A DNA stretch of 35,975 nucleotides. Origin: Syntrophomonadaceae bacterium (GTDB taxonomy: Bacteria; Bacillota; Syntrophomonadia; Syntrophomonadales; Syntrophothermaceae). Position 1 is the stretch's first letter. Every line of letters starts with the position of its first letter. A program made the position numbers and the translations under genes. Shown here piece by piece: positions 4,928 through 20,358 of the stretch. Where the stretch lies: the NCBI GenBank assembly GCA_012719535.1, contig JAAYAC010000044.1, positions 1-35,975 on the forward strand, in the 5' to 3' direction. The notes under the pieces were generated by a model that saw only the letters and a list, made by a program, of their open reading frames with translations, did not search any database and was not told the DNA's origin.

Positions 4928-5165
4928 ATAAAACTCTCATCCCCTTAGGGACGAGAGTTTTTCCCGCGGTACCACCCCATTTGGCACAAAGGCCCCCTCA
5001 AACTCCATAACGGTGGAGTACCGTCTGGTTTAACCCGTTTAAACGGTTTCACCAGCACTCCCGGGTGGCCTTCATCATGGGTCCCATACCGGCTTTCACC
5101 TTGCCCGGCTCTCTGCGATGGAAGACCCGCGACTACTCTCCCGTTCATCGTGATACCCTATTTAC
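4928..5165 (-). ncRNA. T-box riboswitch leader, probable tRNA-Ala sensor
   Basis: Read on the minus strand, the leader has stem I with the AGTA motif (GAGAGTAGTCG), a distal AGAGAGCCGG loop, a specifier loop after GAA (5073-5071), the T-box sequence GGTGGTACCGCGGG (4976-4963) and an intrinsic terminator (arms AAAACTCTC / GAGAGTTTT, 4930-4961). Possible specifiers are GCC (Ala, 5069-5067, followed by the expected purine) or GGC (Gly, 5070-5068). The tRNA-end-pairing bulge is UGGU (4974-4971). Its variable base U pairs with discriminator A, as in tRNA-Ala; glycine T-boxes normally carry UGGA for U73. It ends about 45 bases before the alaR-like gene. Confidence 0.93.
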
Positions 5166-5310: not shown

Positions 5311-5715
5311 ATGTCAAGTTATCCTGTCGCACCACAGCTCGAGCTAACCGGCGAAGAAACCCGTGTGGCGCAAAAGGTCATATCATATTTCAGGTCGCCC
5401 CGGATGAGCTTACAGGAGAAGATGTGGAATGCCAAACTCATCGCCCTTTATGACCTGGAGCAGCACCACTTTACGAATCCTACCGAAAAGGAAAGGATCG
5501 CCCGGTTCACCAGTATCCTGGATAGCATTCTTACCAAGCTAAACCCCCAGGTAACGGGACATTTCTCCCGCAGCTGCCTGGCCGCTGGTAATGCTCTCCA
5601 GGATCGACATGGGAGCTGTACAGGCGCCGGCAGCAAAAACACCTTCCCGGTTGGTGATAACTCCGCCGGTCACATTAATAAAGCCATGGTCATCACGGTT
5701 GACCCCCAGGAGTGA
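5311..5715 (+). CDS. Small hypothetical protein with convergent 3' overlap
   Basis: ATG at 5311 follows GGGGAGGTGGGATT, a strong ribosome binding site. The first 76 or so residues look like real coding sequence: a helical, charged protein with SLQEKMWNAKLIALYDLEQHHF and TEKERIARFTSILDSILTKL. From 5539 on, the frame runs antisense into the end of the HdrA-like gene, and its translation becomes Gly/Cys/Asn-rich and unconvincing. Either the gene truly overlaps its convergent neighbour by 177 bp, or an original stop near 5545 was lost by a small indel. No family was recognised and there is no membrane segment. Confidence 0.55.
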   Translation: MSSYPVAPQLELTGEETRVAQKVISYFRSPRMSLQEKMWNAKLIALYDLEQHHFTNPTEKERIARFTSILDSILTKLNPQVTGHFSRSCLAAGNALQDRHGSCTGAGSKNTFPVGDNSAGHINKAMVITVDPQE

Positions 5716-6537
5716 GGCCAGGTATGCGACATCGCTCCCGGGTAGTAGGGGAGGGCACAGGATGACCCAGTCATAAACCTCTGCGGTAACGGCACCGGTA
5801 GCCGGGTTATCGTATCTCAGTTCCAGCCGGCCGCGTGAAGTAGGGAAAACCTTACCGGGCATGGCTCTAACATAGCTAATGCCAGGCGAGCGATGCTGGT
5901 AAATAGATTCGTATCTCTGGCGGTCCATGTAGAAGACATCCGTCCGGGCCCCGGGTAGCCGGTGACGCAAAAGGCCGGCCAGCTTCGGTACATAAAAGCA
6001 ACACACGCGGGAACAGTACGGTACTCCCCCCCGGGTATCGCGCGAGCCGGTGCACTGGATGAAGGCCACCCGTGGAGCCGGGCCCAGGCTTTCCGGAACT
6101 TCCCGCATAATGGTTTCCAGTTCCACGGCGGTAATGACCCCGGGCAGGCGCGCATAACCGAATTCACCTTTCCTGTCCAGGGGAAGTAGTGACAAGCCAA
6201 GAGCCAGGAGGATACTGCGCACCTGCAGGCGCTCGACACTTTCACCGGCCCGGAACGTGACCGAGTATCCCGTCCGGTTTCGTTCAATCCCGGTAACTTC
6301 AGAGGATATGTGAAGCTCGATGAGTTCTTCCTCACGTACCCGGGCTACCTTCTGGTGGACCAAACAAACCCCGCACGATTGGCAGAACCCGTCAATGGCC
6401 TTGCAGTTGTAGCGCCGGGCCTGGCCACCCGGTTCAGCCGCTTTCTCAACTATCACCGATGCTATTCCTTGGCGGGCCAGCGGCAGACCGGCCTCCAGGC
6501 CGGCTGCGCCCGCCCCGATTATCATAACCTCAGCCAT
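5539..6537 (-). CDS. HdrA/QmoA-like FAD and Fe-S oxidoreductase subunit (short form)
   Basis: This 332-residue flavoprotein has a Rossmann FAD motif (IIGAGAAGLEAG, about 6-17) and VEKAAEPGGQA. A cysteine insert follows at Cys45, Cys52, Cys55 and Cys58, then the HdrA hallmark FIQCTGSRD with Cys162 and YCSRVCC (Cys175, 179, 180), and finally a GVFAAGACTAP segment near the end that closes the FAD site. HdrA usually has about 650 residues with extra ferredoxin domains; this is only the flavin core, near the size of QmoA. Such subunits pass or bifurcate electrons between ferredoxin, NAD or thiol partners. It lies downstream of metF, 262 bp away on the same strand, so it probably serves the methylene-H4F reductase module, but co-transcription is not proven. 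Confidence 0.82.
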   Translation of the reverse strand: MAEVMIIGAGAAGLEAGLPLARQGIASVIVEKAAEPGGQARRYNCKAIDGFCQSCGVCLVHQKVARVREEELIELHISSEVTGIERNRTGYSVTFRAGESVERLQVRSILLALGLSLLPLDRKGEFGYARLPGVITAVELETIMREVPESLGPAPRVAFIQCTGSRDTRGGVPYCSRVCCFYVPKLAGLLRHRLPGARTDVFYMDRQRYESIYQHRSPGISYVRAMPGKVFPTSRGRLELRYDNPATGAVTAEVYDWVILCPPLLPGSDVAYLASLLGVNRDDHGFINVTGGVITNREGVFAAGACTAPMSILESITSGQAAAGEMSRYLGV

Positions 6538-6799
6538 AAAATCTCACTCCAATAGTCACTGATAACACTGATTATATGTGACTGACAGTGACTTATATGA
6601 GTTGTGTCTATCAGCGTGCATCTACGGTTTCATTTTCAGGGCAGACGTGCATGCCGCCCCACCGCCACCAGTAGAGGGATGAAAAAGCGCGTGCATTGTC
6701 GGAAATAACTGGGAATTTTTAATTCTTCATTCTGAATTCTCAATTCCTGTTATGATTCAGATCCCCAATTATGAATGAACTGTCAGTGTTCGTCCGAAT

Positions 6800-7723
6800 T
6801 CATTCAATTTCCGTAACCGGTCGGGGGTAGAGACCGGCGCGCCGGACGATCTCCGGGACGACCTCCTCCCAGGCAACTGCCATGATATGGATGCCTCGTA
6901 CACCGGGAATCTCCCGGATTTGGGCTATTTGTTCCACCACAATATTTATGGCCTCTTCCTGTACATCCTGTGCCTTTTCCAGGCGTTCGCAGATATCGTC
7001 AGCCACCATCATACCGGCCACGTTTTTTTGCATGTAACGGGCCATCCGTGCGGATTTTATGGGCATTACTCCCGCCAGAACCGCCGCCCTCTCATGCAGC
7101 CCCTGTTCGCATACCATCTCCATGAAGCGGCGAAACCGCTCCATCTCCAGTACACACTGGGTTTGAACGAATTGGGCTCCCGCCTCGATTTTCTTCTTCA
7201 GCCTGGTGACCCGAAAAGGGAAAGGATCGGCAAAGGGGTTTTCCACACAGCCGATAAAAACGTCAGGTCTAACCTTCATCTCTTCGCCACAGATAAACCT
7301 GCCTTCATCGCGCATAGTCCTGACCGTATGAATCAACTGAATGGAATCCAGGTCAAAGACATTTTTGGCCTCCGGGTGGTTGCCGAAACTCTGGTGGTCC
7401 CCGGTGAGACACAGGATGTTTGGTATACCCAGGGCCGCCACCCCCAGCACGTCGGACTGCAGGGCAATTCGGTTACGGTCCCGGCAGGTCATTTGAATGA
7501 CCGGCTCGAGTCCTTCCTGCTGCAAAACGATGCCCGCCGCAATGCTGGACATCCTGACAATGGCTGTCTGGTTGTCAGTGACATTGAAGGCATCCGCATA
7601 GCCCCGCAAGAGGTTTCCTTTCTTGCGGACAAAAGCAGCATTGCAGCTCTTGGGTGGGCCAACCTCAGCGGTGACGGCAAAACTGCCGCTCTGCAAAATT
7701 CTCTCCAGTTTACTCCTCGCCAT
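6800..7723 (-). CDS. metF: Methylenetetrahydrofolate reductase catalytic subunit
   Basis: MetF is a TIM-barrel enzyme reducing 5,10-methylene-H4folate to 5-methyl-H4folate. Typical segments are FAVTAEVGPPKS near the N-terminus, TDNQTAIVRMSS, LCLTGDHQ, GCVENPF, GAQFVQTQCV and AGVMPIKSARMARYM. ATG at 7723 (MARSKLERIL) is preferred because it gives the standard 307-residue protein and overlaps the end of metV by 14 bases; the upstream extension reads as junk. The partner MetV upstream identifies the Wood-Ljungdahl/acetogen type rather than the stand-alone NADH-dependent type. The electron donor is likely supplied by the Hdr-type proteins encoded on either side. Confidence 0.92.
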   Translation of the reverse strand: MARSKLERILQSGSFAVTAEVGPPKSCNAAFVRKKGNLLRGYADAFNVTDNQTAIVRMSSIAAGIVLQQEGLEPVIQMTCRDRNRIALQSDVLGVAALGIPNILCLTGDHQSFGNHPEAKNVFDLDSIQLIHTVRTMRDEGRFICGEEMKVRPDVFIGCVENPFADPFPFRVTRLKKKIEAGAQFVQTQCVLEMERFRRFMEMVCEQGLHERAAVLAGVMPIKSARMARYMQKNVAGMMVADDICERLEKAQDVQEEAINIVVEQIAQIREIPGVRGIHIMAVAWEEVVPEIVRRAGLYPRPVTEIE

Positions 7724-8384
7724 CCGGTACCAACCCCTCCCGCACCATTCTCCTGGGGCCGCCGTCACGACTCTTTGCCCAGTTCTTGGGTAAAACCAGC
7801 CTTTCCAGGTTATCCAGCCGGCCCAGGCGTTCGAGCCGTTCATAGATCAGGTGCCAGGCACATTCCACCTCGGCGGATATCTCGCATTTTCCGTTCTGTG
7901 ACCCGCCACAGGGACCGTTTAAAAGGCTTTTTGAGCACCGGGCCACCGGGCAGATGCCCGCGGTCAGGTCCAGGATGCAGTCCCCGCAGGCCTGGCATCT
8001 TTCTTCAAAGCGGCCGTGACGAACAGGCATTCCCATAAAAGTGGTGTTTAACCCAGGTATGACGGGAGAACTGGGGAAGAATTCGGCTACCGCCTGAACC
8101 CCCACCCCGCAAGCCAGTGAAAGTATGGCATCAAATGACGCAAGGCGGGGTTTAAGCTCTTCCAGCAACTCGAATTCGCACTGGCGGGCAACGCAGGTCC
8201 AGTCGAGCGACACATGCAGGTCTCGCAAGGCCATACCCAGGAGGTGCGCCATGGTTTCCGCTTCGCGGGCCCCTCCTGTCTGGCACACGGTTACACACCC
8301 CCCGCAGCCGACCACCAGTATTCTCGAGTAGCCTTTCACCTTCGCGACGATTTCTTCTACAGGTTTCAGTTCCCCGACGATCAT
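7710..8384 (-). CDS. metV: MetV, zinc/Fe-S partner subunit of methylenetetrahydrofolate reductase
   Basis: The 224-residue protein matches the MetV type, annotated as methylene-H4F reductase C-terminal domain protein. The N-terminal part carries VVGCGGCVTVCQTGG (Cys27, 30, 34) and DWTCVARQC. The C-terminal part has CQACGDC (Cys130, 133, 136), GICPVARCSKSLLNGPCGG and KCEISAEVECAW. MetV forms a complex with MetF and relays electrons to it in acetogens. Its start overlaps the upstream Hdr/MvhD-like gene by four bases (ATGA) and its end overlaps metF, so the three are tightly coupled. All expected cysteines appear present. Confidence 0.9.
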   Translation of the reverse strand: MIVGELKPVEEIVAKVKGYSRILVVGCGGCVTVCQTGGAREAETMAHLLGMALRDLHVSLDWTCVARQCEFELLEELKPRLASFDAILSLACGVGVQAVAEFFPSSPVIPGLNTTFMGMPVRHGRFEERCQACGDCILDLTAGICPVARCSKSLLNGPCGGSQNGKCEISAEVECAWHLIYERLERLGRLDNLERLVLPKNWAKSRDGGPRRMVREGLVPDGEE

Positions 8385-9775
8385 TTCCTCTCACCCACCT
8401 TTGTAGCCAGTTCTTCCGGGTGTTCCGCTGCCGACAGACCGAGCAGCTTGACCCGGAGGGTAATACCTAGCCGGTCCAGCAGGGTATTCAATCGCCGGAC
8501 CCGTACCTGAAGCCTGCGGTTTTGATGTTCATGCTGGCATTTGCCCTGATAACAGGCTACCACATATACGTCCCGGTTGCTTTCGCTCAAGGTACGCAGG
8601 ATAACGTTTTCCCCGATCGATGCGGCACAAGGGAAAAGTCGTAATTCGTAATTAAGGCCTTGGCCATGTATCAACCCGGCCGCAGCGTTCTCACAGGCCA
8701 GAACATGAGGAATCCGGGTAGGCGCTGGCTTATCTACCACCTTTTTTATCGCCTGGGCCGGGCATTCAGCATAACACAGGCCGCAGCCCCGGCAGGATAG
8801 CGTATCTATCCGGCAGGCTTCCCGGTAAAGATTTTGGAATAACTTGTCTCGGTGGAATTCTACGGCCTGGTGGGGACAAAGACGGAAGCAGGTGAGGCAA
8901 AAAGCGCACCTGTCCGCGTCGATTTCATAATATTTCTCGGCTCGAACTCGGCCTGTGGCCATCCTGGCCACCTGAGCAGCAATGGCAGCAATTATGACCT
9001 CCTCTTCCGCCGCCGTAAGCACACCTTCCGGGTCGGGGAATACCCAGATACCTTCCCGGTTGGTCCTGCCCGGATAGCTGTCCAGGTTGTCCTCGCCCAG
9101 GCCGAGGAGTTCGTGGTATCTTAAACCATCATCCGTATGTTCCCAGCGGGGGGCTACCAGTATATCATAGGGCAGAGTTATTTCCCGGCCGATGCCGGTA
9201 TCCAACACCCGGGCCTCGAAGCGGTCAGGGGCGCCAGCCGCAGTCCCGATTAGCGGTACCCGGTCGGTACGGATAAAAACCGCCCCGCGAGCCCGAGCTG
9301 TGGAATAGAGGGCCTCCCCGTTGGCAAAGCCTACCTGAACATCGTCGGTAATAACCCATACCCGGTTCTTGGCGGCCAGGGAGATGATCTGGGAAAAGGC
9401 TTGCGTATAGACTCGCCGGGTAACCCCCATCAAAACAAAGAGGATGGAGCAGCCGGCCACTTCCCCGGGTGGTAGGCCGCTGAGAACGGGACCCGCCGGA
9501 TCCGGTACGATGATAATCCCCCCAACCTCGATTTCCTCAATGGCGGAGCCATGGAGGCCAACCGTGAACCTACCCGCCTTGCCGCGCACATAGGCCAGGT
9601 CTTTACCCCAGGCAGTCTGCCCGGAAAACTGCGTCGCCGGGTAAGGAGGTTTTCGCGAAAAAGCCCAGATTACCGGCTGCTGACCGCTGATAACCTTGGC
9701 CAGGCGCCACGCCCTTTCGTTCCCTCCCCATACCAGGACTCGGGGATTGACCTGACAATCCTGATAAATCCTCAT
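8381..9775 (-). CDS. HdrA/QmoB-like protein with two [4Fe-4S] sites and a C-terminal MvhD-like domain
   Basis: 464 residues in three parts. Residues 1-270 resemble a Rossmann HdrA/QmoB region but lack GxGxxG (LVWGGNERAWRLAK at 14-27), so FAD binding there is doubtful. Residues 290-338 form a bacterial ferredoxin domain: Cys290, 293, 296, 300 and Cys328, 331, 334, 338. Residues 355-464 align by eye with MvhD, the hydrogenase delta subunit, keeping Cys361, Cys383, Cys408 and Cys413 but losing the second Cys of the usual CNWC motif. It is the first gene of the hdr-metV-metF run, with GGGGAG upstream of ATG 9775. It probably links the flavoprotein or an outside donor to MetVF. No HdrB, HdrC or hydrogenase gene is beside it. 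Confidence 0.8.
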   Translation of the reverse strand: MRIYQDCQVNPRVLVWGGNERAWRLAKVISGQQPVIWAFSRKPPYPATQFSGQTAWGKDLAYVRGKAGRFTVGLHGSAIEEIEVGGIIIVPDPAGPVLSGLPPGEVAGCSILFVLMGVTRRVYTQAFSQIISLAAKNRVWVITDDVQVGFANGEALYSTARARGAVFIRTDRVPLIGTAAGAPDRFEARVLDTGIGREITLPYDILVAPRWEHTDDGLRYHELLGLGEDNLDSYPGRTNREGIWVFPDPEGVLTAAEEEVIIAAIAAQVARMATGRVRAEKYYEIDADRCAFCLTCFRLCPHQAVEFHRDKLFQNLYREACRIDTLSCRGCGLCYAECPAQAIKKVVDKPAPTRIPHVLACENAAAGLIHGQGLNYELRLFPCAASIGENVILRTLSESNRDVYVVACYQGKCQHEHQNRRLQVRVRRLNTLLDRLGITLRVKLLGLSAAEHPEELATKVGERK

Positions 9776-9827
9776 AAACCATCTTCTCCCCGTCGAATCG
9801 CCCCAACATCATCTATTAATGTATATA

Positions 9828-9856
9828 ATCATAAGACAACCCTTGACGGCGAGCAA
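9828..9856 (-). promoter_or_regulatory. Candidate promoter of the hdr-metVF operon
   Basis: On the minus strand TTGCTC (9856-9851) and TATGAT (9833-9828) are 17 bases apart, about 53 bp before the ATG at 9775. The -10 is good (5 of 6) and the -35 weak. Confidence 0.4.
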
Positions 9857-9922: not shown

Positions 9923-9960
9923 AAAAAGAACCTTCCTCACATAGAAAGAAAGGTTCTTTG
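9923..9960 (-). terminator. Rho-independent terminator of hsp20
   Basis: A perfect 10-bp stem, AAAGAACCTT (9925-9934) with AAGGTTCTTT (9950-9959), is followed on the minus strand by a T-run. It lies 45 bp after the hsp20 stop. Confidence 0.8.
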
Positions 9961-11600: not shown

Positions 11601-13352
11601 ATGAAGAAGTTGATGATTGGCAATGAGGCTATTGCCAGGGGAGCGTATGAAGCGGGGGCGACCGTGGGTGCCGCCTATCCCGGTACTCCCAGTACCGAAA
11701 TAATGGAGTTCTTCAAGGAATATGAGGGGGTTTATGCTGAGTGGGCCCCCAACGAGAAGGTGGCTCTTGAAGTGGGCTGCGGGGCTTCCCTGGGTGGAGC
11801 GCGCACTCTGGTCGCCATGAAACACGTGGGGGTGAATGTCGCGGCAGATCCCCTTTATACTTTTTCCTACACCGGGGTGAATGGCGGGCTCGTCCTGGTA
11901 TCTGCCGATGATCCGGGGATGCACTCGTCGCAGAACGAGCAAGACAACCGTGGCTACGGAAAATTTGCCAAGCTGCCCGTTCTGGAGCCTGCCGATAGCC
12001 AGGAGGCGAAAGACTTCGTTGCCTTGGCCTTTTCTTTAAGTGAAGAATTTGACACGCCGGTGATGGTCAGAGTGACCACCCGCCTGGCCCATTCTCAAAG
12101 CATGGTGGAGGAGGGGGAACGCCGGGAAATACCCCTGAAGCCTTACGTTAAAGATGCTGCCAAGTACGTCATGCTGCCGGGGCATGCCCGTCTGCGGCAT
12201 GTTGAGGTAGAGAAAAGGATGGCGGCGCTGCGCCGGTATGTGGAAGAGAGCCCACTCAACCGGGTGGAATGGGGAAGCAGGGAAACCGGAGTTATTACCA
12301 GCGGCGTGTCTTATCAGTACGTGAAAGAGGTTATGCCCGAGGTATCGGTGCTCAAGCTGGGTATAGTCAATCCATTACCGGAGAAGCTGATCCGCGACTT
12401 TGCGGGGCAAGTGAAGAGGGTTGTCGTGGTAGAGGAGCTGGAACCGGTTATTGAGGAGCAACTGAGAGCGTGGGGAATCGCCGTTCAGGGCAAAGATGTC
12501 CTGCCCCGCACCGGGGAGTACAGCCCTGAATTGCTGGAGGAAAGGCTGCTGGGGCGGAAGGCTGCCGAAGCATATGCGCTGGATGCCGCCATACCACCCC
12601 GACCGCCGCTCATGTGCCCGGGGTGCCCCCACCGCGGGGTGTTCTATACTCTCAACCGGATGAAATTGACCGTGTGCGGTGATATTGGTTGCTACACGCT
12701 GGGGGCTTTGAAGCCTCTGGCCGCCATGGATACCACCATCTGTATGGGGGCCAGTATTGGCACGGCGCTGGGCATGGAAAAGGCCCGGGGGGCAGAATGG
12801 GCCCGTAAAGCGGTGGCAGTCATCGGGGACTCCACCTTTGTACATTCCGGTATCACGCCTTTGATAGACGTGGTGTACAACCAGGGAATGTCGACAGTTA
12901 TTATCTTGGATAACGAGACGACGGCCATGACGGGACACCAGAACCACCCGGCTACCGGTCTTACCTTGAATAACACCGACACCGTGCGCTTGGATCTGGA
13001 ATCCGTCTGCCGGGCGGTGGGGGTGAAGAGGGTTCGGACCGTGGACCCGCTGAACCTGAAAGAGCTGGAAAATGCCCTGCAAGAGGAGCTGGCGGCCCGT
13101 GAGCCCTCGGTAATAATTGCCAGACGGCCCTGTGCCCTGATTCCGGGTGCGGGCCTGGGAGAAAAATCGTACTATGTTGACACCGTAGCCTGCAAGGGTT
13201 GCAAGCTCTGTATTAAGCTGGGATGTACTGGCGTATACTGGATTGAAGAAGAAAAACTGGCCAGGATCAACCCCGACCTCTGTGTCGGGTGTGGCCTGTG
13301 CCTGCAGGTATGCAAGCTGGATGCTATCCTGGAAGGGGAGGGAAAAGAATGA
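11601..13352 (+). CDS. iorA: Indolepyruvate ferredoxin oxidoreductase, alpha subunit
   Basis: 583 residues. IorA oxidises aryl 2-oxoacids (indolepyruvate, phenylpyruvate) to acyl-CoA using thiamine diphosphate and reduces ferredoxin. The N-terminal pyrimidine-binding domain has GNEAIARGAYEAG and YPGTPSTEI. The thiamine-diphosphate core has CPGCPHRG, CMGASIGTALG and VIGDSTFVHSG with ILDNETTAMTG. The C-terminal ferredoxin domain has CKGCKLCIKLGC and CVGCGLCLQVC, enough for two clusters. ATG follows GGGGGAGCAGA. It overlaps iorB by four bases. The following HisC-type aminotransferase would supply the 2-oxoacid, pointing to aromatic amino acid breakdown or its reverse. Confidence 0.95.
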   Translation: MKKLMIGNEAIARGAYEAGATVGAAYPGTPSTEIMEFFKEYEGVYAEWAPNEKVALEVGCGASLGGARTLVAMKHVGVNVAADPLYTFSYTGVNGGLVLVSADDPGMHSSQNEQDNRGYGKFAKLPVLEPADSQEAKDFVALAFSLSEEFDTPVMVRVTTRLAHSQSMVEEGERREIPLKPYVKDAAKYVMLPGHARLRHVEVEKRMAALRRYVEESPLNRVEWGSRETGVITSGVSYQYVKEVMPEVSVLKLGIVNPLPEKLIRDFAGQVKRVVVVEELEPVIEEQLRAWGIAVQGKDVLPRTGEYSPELLEERLLGRKAAEAYALDAAIPPRPPLMCPGCPHRGVFYTLNRMKLTVCGDIGCYTLGALKPLAAMDTTICMGASIGTALGMEKARGAEWARKAVAVIGDSTFVHSGITPLIDVVYNQGMSTVIILDNETTAMTGHQNHPATGLTLNNTDTVRLDLESVCRAVGVKRVRTVDPLNLKELENALQEELAAREPSVIIARRPCALIPGAGLGEKSYYVDTVACKGCKLCIKLGCTGVYWIEEEKLARINPDLCVGCGLCLQVCKLDAILEGEGKE

Positions 13353-13963
13353 ACAGGCAATCGGTTACCAACATCATGATCGTCGGAGTTGGGGGACAGG
13401 GTACCCTCCTCACCAGCCGGGTCATCGCCCGGGTAGCCACCAAAATGGGGTATGACGTGAAGGTTTCCGAGGTGCATGGTATGGCCCAGCGCGGCGGGAG
13501 TGTCGTATCCCAGGTCCGTTTCGGGGGCAAGGTCTACTCTCCGATAATTAAAAAGGGTGATGCCGATGTGGTGCTGGCCTTTGAAAAGCTGGAGGCCGGG
13601 CGCTGGTTGGGCTACCTGAAGCAGGGTGGCTTGCTGATCATAAATGATGAAAGGGTAGACCCCCTGCCGGTGATGAGCGGGGAAACCAGGTACCCTGACG
13701 ATATTGCGGAAAGGCTGGCCAGATTGGTTCCGCGTACCGTGGTAGTGGACGCCACGGGCATGGCCCGCTCCTGCGGGAGTGCGCGCGCGGCCAATATCGT
13801 GCTGGTCGGGCTCTTGACCCGGGCTATGGCTCTGCCCGCAGAGCTGGTCGCAGAAGCCATCCAGGAGATGGTCCCGGCCAAGGTGCTGGATATTAACCTG
13901 CGAGCGTTTGAGACAGGACTGGAATACGGGACGAATTGCCGTCTTAAAGTGAATTTGGCATAG
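13349..13963 (+). CDS. iorB: Indolepyruvate ferredoxin oxidoreductase, beta subunit
   Basis: 204 residues from ATG 13349, which overlaps the iorA stop (ATGA). It is the gamma-type domain subunit of the 2-oxoacid:ferredoxin oxidoreductase family: VGVGGQGTLLTSRVIA near residue 12, the SEVHGMAQRGGSVVSQVRFG segment at about 40-60, and ARAANIVLVGLL. A longer in-frame start at 13289 would lie inside iorA without a ribosome binding site and is rejected. It works with IorA as a heterodimer. The downstream aminotransferase starts after only 15 bases. Confidence 0.94.
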   Translation: MNRQSVTNIMIVGVGGQGTLLTSRVIARVATKMGYDVKVSEVHGMAQRGGSVVSQVRFGGKVYSPIIKKGDADVVLAFEKLEAGRWLGYLKQGGLLIINDERVDPLPVMSGETRYPDDIAERLARLVPRTVVVDATGMARSCGSARAANIVLVGLLTRAMALPAELVAEAIQEMVPAKVLDINLRAFETGLEYGTNCRLKVNLA

Positions 13964-18116: not shown

Positions 18117-18560
18117 TTGGCCAGGTTGCTGAGAGTAGGCGATCTGGGAAAATGTATCGGGTGTTATAACTGCATGTTCGCCTGTGCCCGCGAGGTGATG
18201 GGCAGTTATTCCCCGTTGACCGCGGCGATACGTATCAGGACCGGCGGCGGATATCATAGCAAGATGGCGGCCGATGTCTGCCGGGCTTGCCGGGAACCGG
18301 CCTGTGCTGCTGCCTGTGAGGAAGGCGCACTTCGACCGCGGAAAGCTGGAGGCGTTCGGTTTGTATCTGGCCAGTGCACGAGGTGCGGTAAGTGCGGGGA
18401 AGCTTGCCCGATCAAATACCTGGAGTTCAACCCCGTAACTGGGCAACCTATCGTTTGCCGGCACTGCGGCGTGTGTGCCAACTATTGCCCACACGGGGTT
18501 CTGACTATGGAGGAGGTTAACAATGCTCAACCGGGAATACATCAGGGTGCTGCACGTTGA
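18117..18560 (+). CDS. Four-cluster [4Fe-4S] ferredoxin subunit, partner of aldehyde oxidoreductase
   Basis: 147 residues from TTG 18117, seven bases after GGGAAGGTG. Sixteen cysteines fall in four groups: CIGCYNCMFAC, CRACREPACAAAC, CTRCGKCGEACP and CRHCGVCANYCP. This is the pattern of HycB/NrfC-like electron-transfer subunits and of the small subunit AorA that accompanies some tungsten aldehyde oxidoreductases. Its end overlaps the oxidoreductase start by 38 bases, so the two are translationally linked and probably form a complex. No signal peptide is present, so it is cytoplasmic. Confidence 0.9.
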   Translation: MARLLRVGDLGKCIGCYNCMFACAREVMGSYSPLTAAIRIRTGGGYHSKMAADVCRACREPACAAACEEGALRPRKAGGVRFVSGQCTRCGKCGEACPIKYLEFNPVTGQPIVCRHCGVCANYCPHGVLTMEEVNNAQPGIHQGAAR

Positions 18561-20358
18561 TCTGGGGGAACAGAAGTGGAAGGTTGCGGAACGGGAAGAC
18601 CTCTACCGCTATCTGGGAGGGGTGGGAGTGGGAATTCGCCTGCTGGACGAAAACGTGTTTTACAACCTCGACCCGCTGGATCCGGCCCAGCCCATAATCT
18701 TTTGTGTCGGGCCTCTTTCTTCCGTGTATCCGGTCATGACCAAGTCAGTTTGTCTGTTTCGCTCCCCCCTGACCGGGGAGCTGGGTGAAAGCTATGCCGG
18801 AGGCCGGCTAGCCATGGCCATGGTCTATGCCGGTTATGATGCCATCGTGCTCACCGGGGAAAGCGATGTCCCGGTCTACCTGGACATAGGGCCTGACCAG
18901 GTAGAATTTCGCAATGCCGAGCCGTTATGGGGGGTTGGAAGCGGGGAAACCGGGCGTTACCTGCGGGAGCTGGCCCCCGGCAGGGGATTTCGCTCCATTG
19001 TTCGTATCGGCCCCGCGGGGGAAAACCTGGTTCACTTTGCCAACCTGAATGTTGATACCTTTCGTCATTTTGGCCGGCTGGGGTCGGGGGCCGTTTTCGG
19101 CAGCAAGAACCTTAAGGCGATGGTGGTTTACGGTAATCTTGACCACCCTATACCTAATGCACGCCTGCGCGACTACCGGCGTACTTACCAGGAAGTTCAC
19201 AAGAAGGTGACCGAAACCGAACTGATGGAGAAATACCACAACCTGGGGACTCCGGTTAACATCATGCGCCTGAATGAAATGAATGCCTTGCCGACGCGCA
19301 ACCTGCAGCAGGCTACCTTTGAAAAAGCCCGCGAGATATCGGGCGAAGCTTTTGCGGACGAAAGGCTAACCCGCAAGCTTTCCTGCGTCGGCTGCCCCAT
19401 AGGTTGCATTCATATGGCGTCCCACCGGAAGCTCTTCGGACCCAAAAGCCATGACTATGAAACCTCGATTCTGGCGTATGACCATGAACTCATTTTCGCC
19501 CTGGGAAGTTTTCTGGGAACCGCCGACAAAGACCAGTTCTTGACCTTGCTGGAGGAGGTGGAGGACATGGGTTTCGATGTAATGAGCGTGGGGGTGCTGC
19601 TGGGCTGGCTGACGGAGGCCTTTGCCAACGGGCTAGTGGGGGAGAAAGAACTGGGTACCAGGGTGGAGTTCGGCTTCACGGAAGGATACCTGAAGGTGAT
19701 GCGGGGTATAGCTCACCCGGAGAACGAGCTTTACCGTTTGTTGGGCAAGGGGACCGAGGCTGCGGCTGAGCAACTGGGCGGGCTGGATTATGCCATGACG
19801 CTGGGCCGTACCGAGATGACCGGCTACCATACCGGCTATGGGGCTGCCCTTGGCCAGGCGGTAGGTGCCAGGCATTCCCACCTGGACAACGCCGGGTACT
19901 CGTTCGACCAGTCCCGGGACTATGACGATATTCCCGGGTTTGTGTCCGCTATTTTCGAAGAAGAGCTCAACCGCTGCGTAACCAACTGCCTGGTCATGTG
20001 CCTGTTTGCCAGGGCGGTCTACGAATTCCCCATCATTGTCCGGGCCCTGAAATCGGTAGGTATTGAAAAGTCCGAAGAGGAACTAAGGGAACTTGGCCGG
20101 GAAGTATACCGCAACAAGATTCGGGTCAAGCAGAAGATGGGATTTGACTTTAAAAAGTTACGTTTCCCGAAGCGCTTCTTTGAAACCGAGTGCCTGCACG
20201 GGCGGCTGAATGAGGAGACTATGCAACGGATGCTGGAACTGTATATACAGGAAGTGGAACAGGTAATGGCCGAAGATAAAGGGGCCCGCAGCTTTGCTGC
20301 CGGCCCTGGTGAACAGCACCTGCGGGGAAAAACCTCCTCGCCCGGCCCGTTGCATTAG
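18523..20358 (+). CDS. aor: Aldehyde:ferredoxin oxidoreductase family tungsten enzyme
   Basis: 611 residues, the usual AOR length. These enzymes carry a tungsto-bispyranopterin and one [4Fe-4S] cluster and convert aldehydes to acids, or the reverse with low-potential electrons. Seen here: GGVGVGIRLL near residue 32, SPLTGELGESYAGG, the cluster ligands CVGCPIGC, EMTGYHTGYGAALGQAVG and a distal Cys in NRCVTNCLVMCLF. The GTG/ATG region has GGAGG before ATG 18523. The ferredoxin gene upstream overlaps it. The last 35 residues are low-complexity. Its stop overlaps the convergent gene's stop. Substrate specificity cannot be read from the sequence. Confidence 0.92.
   Translation: MLNREYIRVLHVDLGEQKWKVAEREDLYRYLGGVGVGIRLLDENVFYNLDPLDPAQPIIFCVGPLSSVYPVMTKSVCLFRSPLTGELGESYAGGRLAMAMVYAGYDAIVLTGESDVPVYLDIGPDQVEFRNAEPLWGVGSGETGRYLRELAPGRGFRSIVRIGPAGENLVHFANLNVDTFRHFGRLGSGAVFGSKNLKAMVVYGNLDHPIPNARLRDYRRTYQEVHKKVTETELMEKYHNLGTPVNIMRLNEMNALPTRNLQQATFEKAREISGEAFADERLTRKLSCVGCPIGCIHMASHRKLFGPKSHDYETSILAYDHELIFALGSFLGTADKDQFLTLLEEVEDMGFDVMSVGVLLGWLTEAFANGLVGEKELGTRVEFGFTEGYLKVMRGIAHPENELYRLLGKGTEAAAEQLGGLDYAMTLGRTEMTGYHTGYGAALGQAVGARHSHLDNAGYSFDQSRDYDDIPGFVSAIFEEELNRCVTNCLVMCLFARAVYEFPIIVRALKSVGIEKSEEELRELGREVYRNKIRVKQKMGFDFKKLRFPKRFFETECLHGRLNEETMQRMLELYIQEVEQVMAEDKGARSFAAGPGEQHLRGKTSSPGPLH

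Follow-up and report, generated by a model that had tools for sequence, protein, structure and literature searches.

The four-gene unit and its surroundings

The window, that is, the whole stretch of 35,975 nucleotides that was analysed, is the entire contig C21 of a Syntrophomonadaceae genome of 2.49 Mb that is 98% complete. On its minus strand, from 9775 down to 5539, lie in this order the genes for a QmoB-like protein, MetV, MetF and a short HdrA-type flavoprotein:

8381-9775, minus strand: QmoB-like (HdrA/MvhD-like) protein, 464 aa; PF02662 match, HdrA folds
7710-8384, minus strand: MetV, 224 aa; PF12225/DUF5981, E=8e-38
6800-7723, minus strand: MetF; PF02219, E=2e-40; the ATG at 7723 is the probable start
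6538-6799, minus strand: metF-hdrA spacer, 262 bp
5539-6537, minus strand: short HdrA-type flavoprotein, 332 aa; TrxR core alone

ORF translations, Pfam matches, folds and relatives bear out the four genes, the order and the strand given in an earlier note on this DNA. Of the span that it proposed, 5539-9856, the start holds, while the end lies 81 bp past the start of the QmoB-like gene at 9775. As the note had also remarked, genes for HdrB (CCG), HdrC or a hydrogenase are absent from the four-gene unit; HdrBC exist elsewhere in the genome. The QmoB-like and MetV genes overlap by 4 nt. The MetF frame is open from 7843, and the proteins of aligned relatives in families f1 and f2 start at the methionine of 7723 (f1, f2 and so on are the family labels used in this analysis; L numbers are loci and C numbers contigs). 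On this alignment, MetF is most likely encoded by 7723-6800, and its 14-nt overlap with MetV follows from taking the ATG at 7723 as the start. Identity in f1/f2 amounts to 59-75% for MetV and 79-85% for MetF; a sequence search of the PDB found no relative of MetV. The metF-hdrA spacer measures 12-320 bp in f1/f2 and less than 40 bp in most other families, and the 262 bp in the window leave room for a separate promoter.

Besides MetV and MetF, the genes neighbouring the two Hdr-like ones encode AsnC, an aminotransferase and HSP20. Ahead of the QmoB-like gene, an inverted repeat, AAAGAACCTT...AAGGTTCTTT (9925-9959, minus strand), is terminator-like or operator-like. Downstream of the unit, a T-box leader (4944-5157, minus strand; Rfam RF00230, E=1e-23) lies upstream of the AsnC/Lrp regulator and the aminotransferase, a pair also found after the unit in f63 and in the majority of f1/f2 loci. 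A small convergent ORF (5311-5715, plus strand), whose frame continues antisense to the 3' end of hdrA, has about 70 residues conserved at 54-74% identity in six f1/f2 relatives, where it likewise adjoins hdrA; it gave no Pfam match in the one relative tested. Further away, the window contains indolepyruvate ferredoxin oxidoreductase genes (11601-13963) and an aldehyde ferredoxin oxidoreductase (AOR) gene (18523-20358, plus strand).

Two sets of HdrBC genes are found on other contigs of the same genome. On C110 (L043, 4682-8929), HdrC-HdrB-HdrA-MvhD precedes genes for NAD-binding and Fe-S subunits, which are similar to Flx-Hdr; the hdrA and mvhD genes of this set have in-frame TGA codons, possibly for selenocysteine. 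On C49 (L044, 1-3404), the order is HdrB-short HdrA (346 aa)-HdrC-HdrB, beside CoA-transferase genes, and this short HdrA is 34% identical to that of the window.

The two Hdr-like proteins

The short HdrA matches the HdrA2 model at positions 138-224 and 304-559 only, which is the TrxR core. Model positions 225-303, the inserted ferredoxin domain that serves as ferredoxin site in the methanogen complex, are unmatched, and the N-terminal domain and the C-terminal ferredoxin domain are missing as well. The AF2 model (pLDDT 92.5) resembles sHdrA (6tjr) over its full length, with TM 0.89/0.87, and HdrA 5odc with a TMq of 0.91. Alignment to 5odc places the residues around the flavin as follows:

5983-6054, minus strand: near-flavin [4Fe-4S] ligands C162, C175, C179 and C180, with K185

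In the same alignment, K185 corresponds to K409, and E141, just upstream of the cluster ligands, to E356 of M. thermolithotrophicus HdrA. The four cysteines are conserved in 32-33 of 33 short HdrA homologues and E141 in 32 of them; position 185 is occupied by Lys in 23 and by Arg in the other 10, including one of the three f1 proteins. A passage of PMC9430772 that cites Appel et al. describes the E356/K409 pair as used to call bifurcating flavins. Both the pair and the near-flavin ligands are present in the window's short HdrA, and flavin-based bifurcation at its FAD is possible, as judged from these residues. The claim is weakened by the f1 protein, one of three, that has Arg at this position. 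Bifurcation is undemonstrated for the enzymes of M. thermoacetica, S. ovata and T. phaeum, the relatives that have been assayed.

The QmoB-like protein is built of three parts:

8984-9775, minus strand: residues 1-264, a TrxR-like pseudo-flavoprotein domain in which the FAD motif GxGxxG...E...GG is missing, from a motif comparison of 37 homologues
8738-8950, minus strand: residues 276-346, two CxxCxxCxxxCP [4Fe-4S] motifs that correspond to the C-terminal ferredoxin domain of HdrA
8417-8707, minus strand: residues 357-453, MvhD/FlpD-like domain (PF02662, E=1e-10)

In fold, it comes closest to HdrA chains (5odh_A, E=1e-18, TMq 0.53; AF2 pLDDT 85.5). The eight cysteines of the two [4Fe-4S] motifs are invariant in 31 homologues, and C361, C383, C408 and C413 of the MvhD/FlpD-like domain are invariant among eight f1/f2 homologues. 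The GGGxxG dinucleotide motif is kept in f7, f14, f56, f77 and f126, partly altered in f30 and absent in f1 and f2. We infer that the latter have undergone decay of the FAD motif and that the others did not gain it, because FAD binding is the rule in the family. A near-flavin Cys motif in this subunit was found in none of the families compared.

Conservation across the phylum

The unit is not confined to the window. A synteny search, which had been suggested as a check, finds the same four-gene order in every f1/f2 relative whose contig spans the locus (three of three f1 and five of five f2 loci with context), and the order recurs in f7, f14, f30, f37, f56, f63 and f126. Outside f1/f2, it mostly lies within the CODH/ACS operon. 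With this conservation across f1, f2 and many other families, a chance arrangement is excluded. Among 399 sampled genomes of the phylum, MetV is present in 110 (E<=1e-30) and the QmoB-like protein in at least 37 (E<=1e-25), all 37 being MetV-positive; L190, L191, L197 and L198, where a QmoB-like gene precedes MetV, fall outside these matches. In f30, f14, f7, f56 and f126, the genes are part of operons of the order CooS-AcsB-AcsC-AcsD-AcsE-QmoB-like(-MvhD)-MetV-MetF-short HdrA, one of which was checked with Pfam, and the metF-hdrA gap in these CODH/ACS operons is less than 40 bp. In most loci, the QmoB-like (or MvhD) gene overlaps MetV by 4 nt.

The position of the short HdrA gene is more variable, being upstream of the QmoB-like gene in f36, f102 and f112. 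In f51, a single ORF of 937-980 aa, directly before MetV-MetF, comprises both a short HdrA part and a QmoB-like part (at 40-352 and 614-939 of the 980-aa ORF). Since the two genes that flank metVF in the window are one polypeptide in f51, the fusion argues for their interaction. The earlier note had named two arrangements that would speak against its unit, a short HdrA gene apart from metVF in most relatives and HdrBC genes in the operon of close relatives. The short HdrA gene is adjacent, upstream of the QmoB-like gene or fused to it, L126 being the sole full-context locus without one nearby, and no close relative carries HdrBC in the operon. A recent break of one HdrA gene was rejected as the origin of the two Hdr-like genes, since each is intact and the split is common to several families. 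The short-HdrA tree has long branches. In two loci from MAGs titled Deltaproteobacteria (L054, 5128-9081; L055, 2449-5626), the short HdrA and QmoB-like pair occurs without MetVF nearby, in L054 accompanied by an HdrC-like and a CCG protein; the pair may therefore serve other systems too.

Comparison with known systems

The known type IV layout, HdrC-HdrB-HdrA (893-1491 aa)-MvhD-MetV-MetF, is found in f16 and f50. One of these long HdrA proteins has the 1487 aa reported for M. thermoacetica HdrA (PMC9430772). Within the long HdrA there are two TrxR modules, and the short HdrA matches both. With the type IV systems of Moorella thermoacetica and Sporomusa ovata (HdrCBA-MvhD-MetVF), the unit shares MetV, MetF, MvhD, a C-terminal 2[4Fe-4S] part and a double set of TrxR-like HdrA modules, as well as the absence of the inserted ferredoxin domain. 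Unlike in these systems, however, HdrB and HdrC are missing from the unit, one flavin site has been lost and HdrA is split into two genes that flank metVF. Moreover, Moorella has a GltD/NAD(P)H module, whereas the unit has none. MetV and MetF together, an MvhD domain and an HdrA flavoprotein are thus present in the operon as in type IV, but HdrB and HdrC do not accompany MetVF in the window or in the f1 and f2 operons, which makes the unit a type IV-like variant and not a strict member. Nor does its gene content fit type II, where MetVF has no dedicated electron-input subunits in the cluster.

The short HdrA is equal in length and domain make-up to sHdrA of Hyphomicrobium denitrificans (6tjr), but the operons differ: sHdrA belongs to the sulfur-oxidizing sHdr system with HdrB/C-type partners. 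QmoA and QmoB of sulfate reducers are also a short flavoprotein of the HdrA type with a fusion of HdrA and MvhD as its partner, like the pair in the window. The latter, however, is linked to MetVF, with no sulfate-reduction genes adjacent, and the neighbouring genes at the locus include no QmoC membrane subunit.

The closest likeness in layout is to Thermacetogenium phaeum, where cluster Tph_c15120-15090 encodes an MvhD-type protein, MetV, MetF and HdrA, with HdrBC elsewhere (PMC6895022). The order is the same and HdrBC are likewise missing from the cluster, Tph_c15120 being compared by its description as MvhD-type. In T. phaeum, the cluster is part of a CODH/ACS operon in an organism with a reversible Wood-Ljungdahl pathway; the window's genome, by contrast, has no ACS, and the gene ahead of MetV encodes a short protein whose FAD motif has been lost. 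The unit can therefore not be regarded as a singular reduced Moorella-type complex, along the lines that the earlier note had considered: the architecture is widespread in CODH/ACS-bearing members of the phylum and has been published for T. phaeum. It is of a known kind, an Hdr-type methylene-THF reductase operon of the T. phaeum layout, here in a form that lacks CODH/ACS and has lost one of its flavin sites. What is new is that the HdrBC-free layout is retained in a branch that lacks acetyl-CoA synthase.

Physiological role and electron flow

This branch of the MetVF tree unites f1, f2, f37 and f63 (SH-aLRT 94, just below the starred level). AcsB (PF03598) is absent from all nine f1/f2 genomes, among them the complete one-contig genome G003 (2,405,559 bp), taken as Syntrophothermus lipocalidus, and also from those f37 and f63 genomes that were tested. 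At this locus lies the only methylene-THF reductase of the window's genome, which also encodes a MetH-like protein of 845 aa. This points to biosynthesis; on this gene content, reduction to supply methyl-THF for methionine synthesis is the favoured role. The earlier note had imagined the complex running in reverse, oxidizing methyl-THF during syntrophic growth. The lineage is indeed syntrophic, as S. lipocalidus oxidizes butyrate and isobutyrate (PMC3035303), and T. phaeum extracts display methyl-THF:benzyl viologen activity (PMC6895022). But the f1/f2 genomes, lacking acetyl-CoA synthase, have no acetate oxidation through the methyl branch that the complex could serve, and against such a function also stands the pairing of the sole reductase with a MetH-like gene. 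Reverse operation is unlikely, and as an account of the complex we give it hardly any credence.

It is probable, in our estimation, that the four genes encode one split, HdrBC-free, Hdr-type methylene-THF reductase that works reductively and provides methyl-THF for MetH. From the gene order, the fusion and the S. ovata pull-downs, in which HdrA and MvhD bind MetVF (PMC9430772), the four proteins are likely to form a physical complex. To this extent the earlier proposal stands: the synteny, the co-occurrence in 37 of 37 genomes, the overlaps and the f51 fusion give good support to a complex for methylene-H4F reduction that has an Hdr module of its own and no HdrBC in the operon. The notion of a peculiar reduced form does not hold. 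Catalysis would take place at the MetF flavin, supplied by the Fe-S clusters of MetV. The Hdr half, a single chain in some other bacteria, would be spread over two proteins, of which the short HdrA would hold the sole FAD and the near-flavin [4Fe-4S] cluster. The QmoB-like protein could be imagined as a wire, leading through a [2Fe-2S] MvhD domain and then two [4Fe-4S] clusters on a TrxR-like scaffold devoid of the flavin motif. Electrons would thus pass from a donor to the QmoB-like protein, the HdrA FAD, MetV, MetF and finally methylene-THF, the external donor being ferredoxin or a dehydrogenase docked on the MvhD domain. In a lineage without CODH/ACS, the direction would be reductive, with methyl-THF passed on to MetH. 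As the unit has neither an inserted ferredoxin domain nor a GltD/NAD(P)H module, entry via the MvhD domain, or from ferredoxin at MetV, appears likeliest. A [NiFe]-hydrogenase may act as partner in trans; genes of the hydrogenase large-subunit type were found elsewhere in the genome in all 11 genomes searched, some of these matches possibly being complex I-like. That the short HdrA also bifurcates or merges electrons, in a purely biosynthetic HdrBC-free four-subunit enzyme with the second HdrA module as a flavin-less wire, is a more far-reaching version that we regard as rather doubtful.

Two other explanations bear on the partners of MetVF. HdrBC from C110 or C49 might join the reductase in trans to give a classical type IV complex and thereby couple it with NADH or a quinone/formate system, the scheme that has been put forward for T. 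phaeum. The genes are available in the same genome, and in T. phaeum and S. schinkii HdrBC are encoded apart from MetVF-HdrA (PMC6895022, PMC11201294). Yet each set sits with an HdrA of its own (660 aa on C110, 346 aa on C49), that on C110 also with its own MvhD and NAD-binding subunits, and the short HdrA has neither the N-terminal domain nor the two ferredoxin domains of bifurcating HdrA; we consider this arrangement unlikely. It seems a poor prospect, too, that MetVF works as an ordinary type II enzyme that depends on ferredoxin, with the flanking Hdr-like proteins forming an independent oxidoreductase kept by operon history. Type II MetVF is active in vitro with reduced ferredoxin alone (PMC8760232), and MetVF occurs without adjacent Hdr genes in L187 and L196. 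In S. ovata, MetVF separated from the Hdr subunits, which were lost on purification (PMC9430772). Against such independence speak the co-occurrence, the 4-nt overlaps, the order kept across families, the f51 fusion and the retention of the Hdr-like genes after loss of CODH/ACS.

Significance

In the bioenergetics of acetogens, an open question is how Hdr-type methylene-THF reductases receive their electrons and whether bifurcation is involved, and a stable coupled complex has not been obtained for the enzymes of M. thermoacetica and S. ovata. The four-gene HdrBC-free form in the cultured S. lipocalidus, with its complete genome and no acetyl-CoA synthase, offers a simpler test system. In metagenomes, Hdr genes beside metVF are by themselves not evidence for acetogenesis or acetate oxidation. 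If the more far-reaching version with bifurcation is true, an energy module of the Wood-Ljungdahl pathway would have been repurposed for methionine synthesis after the loss of CODH/ACS.
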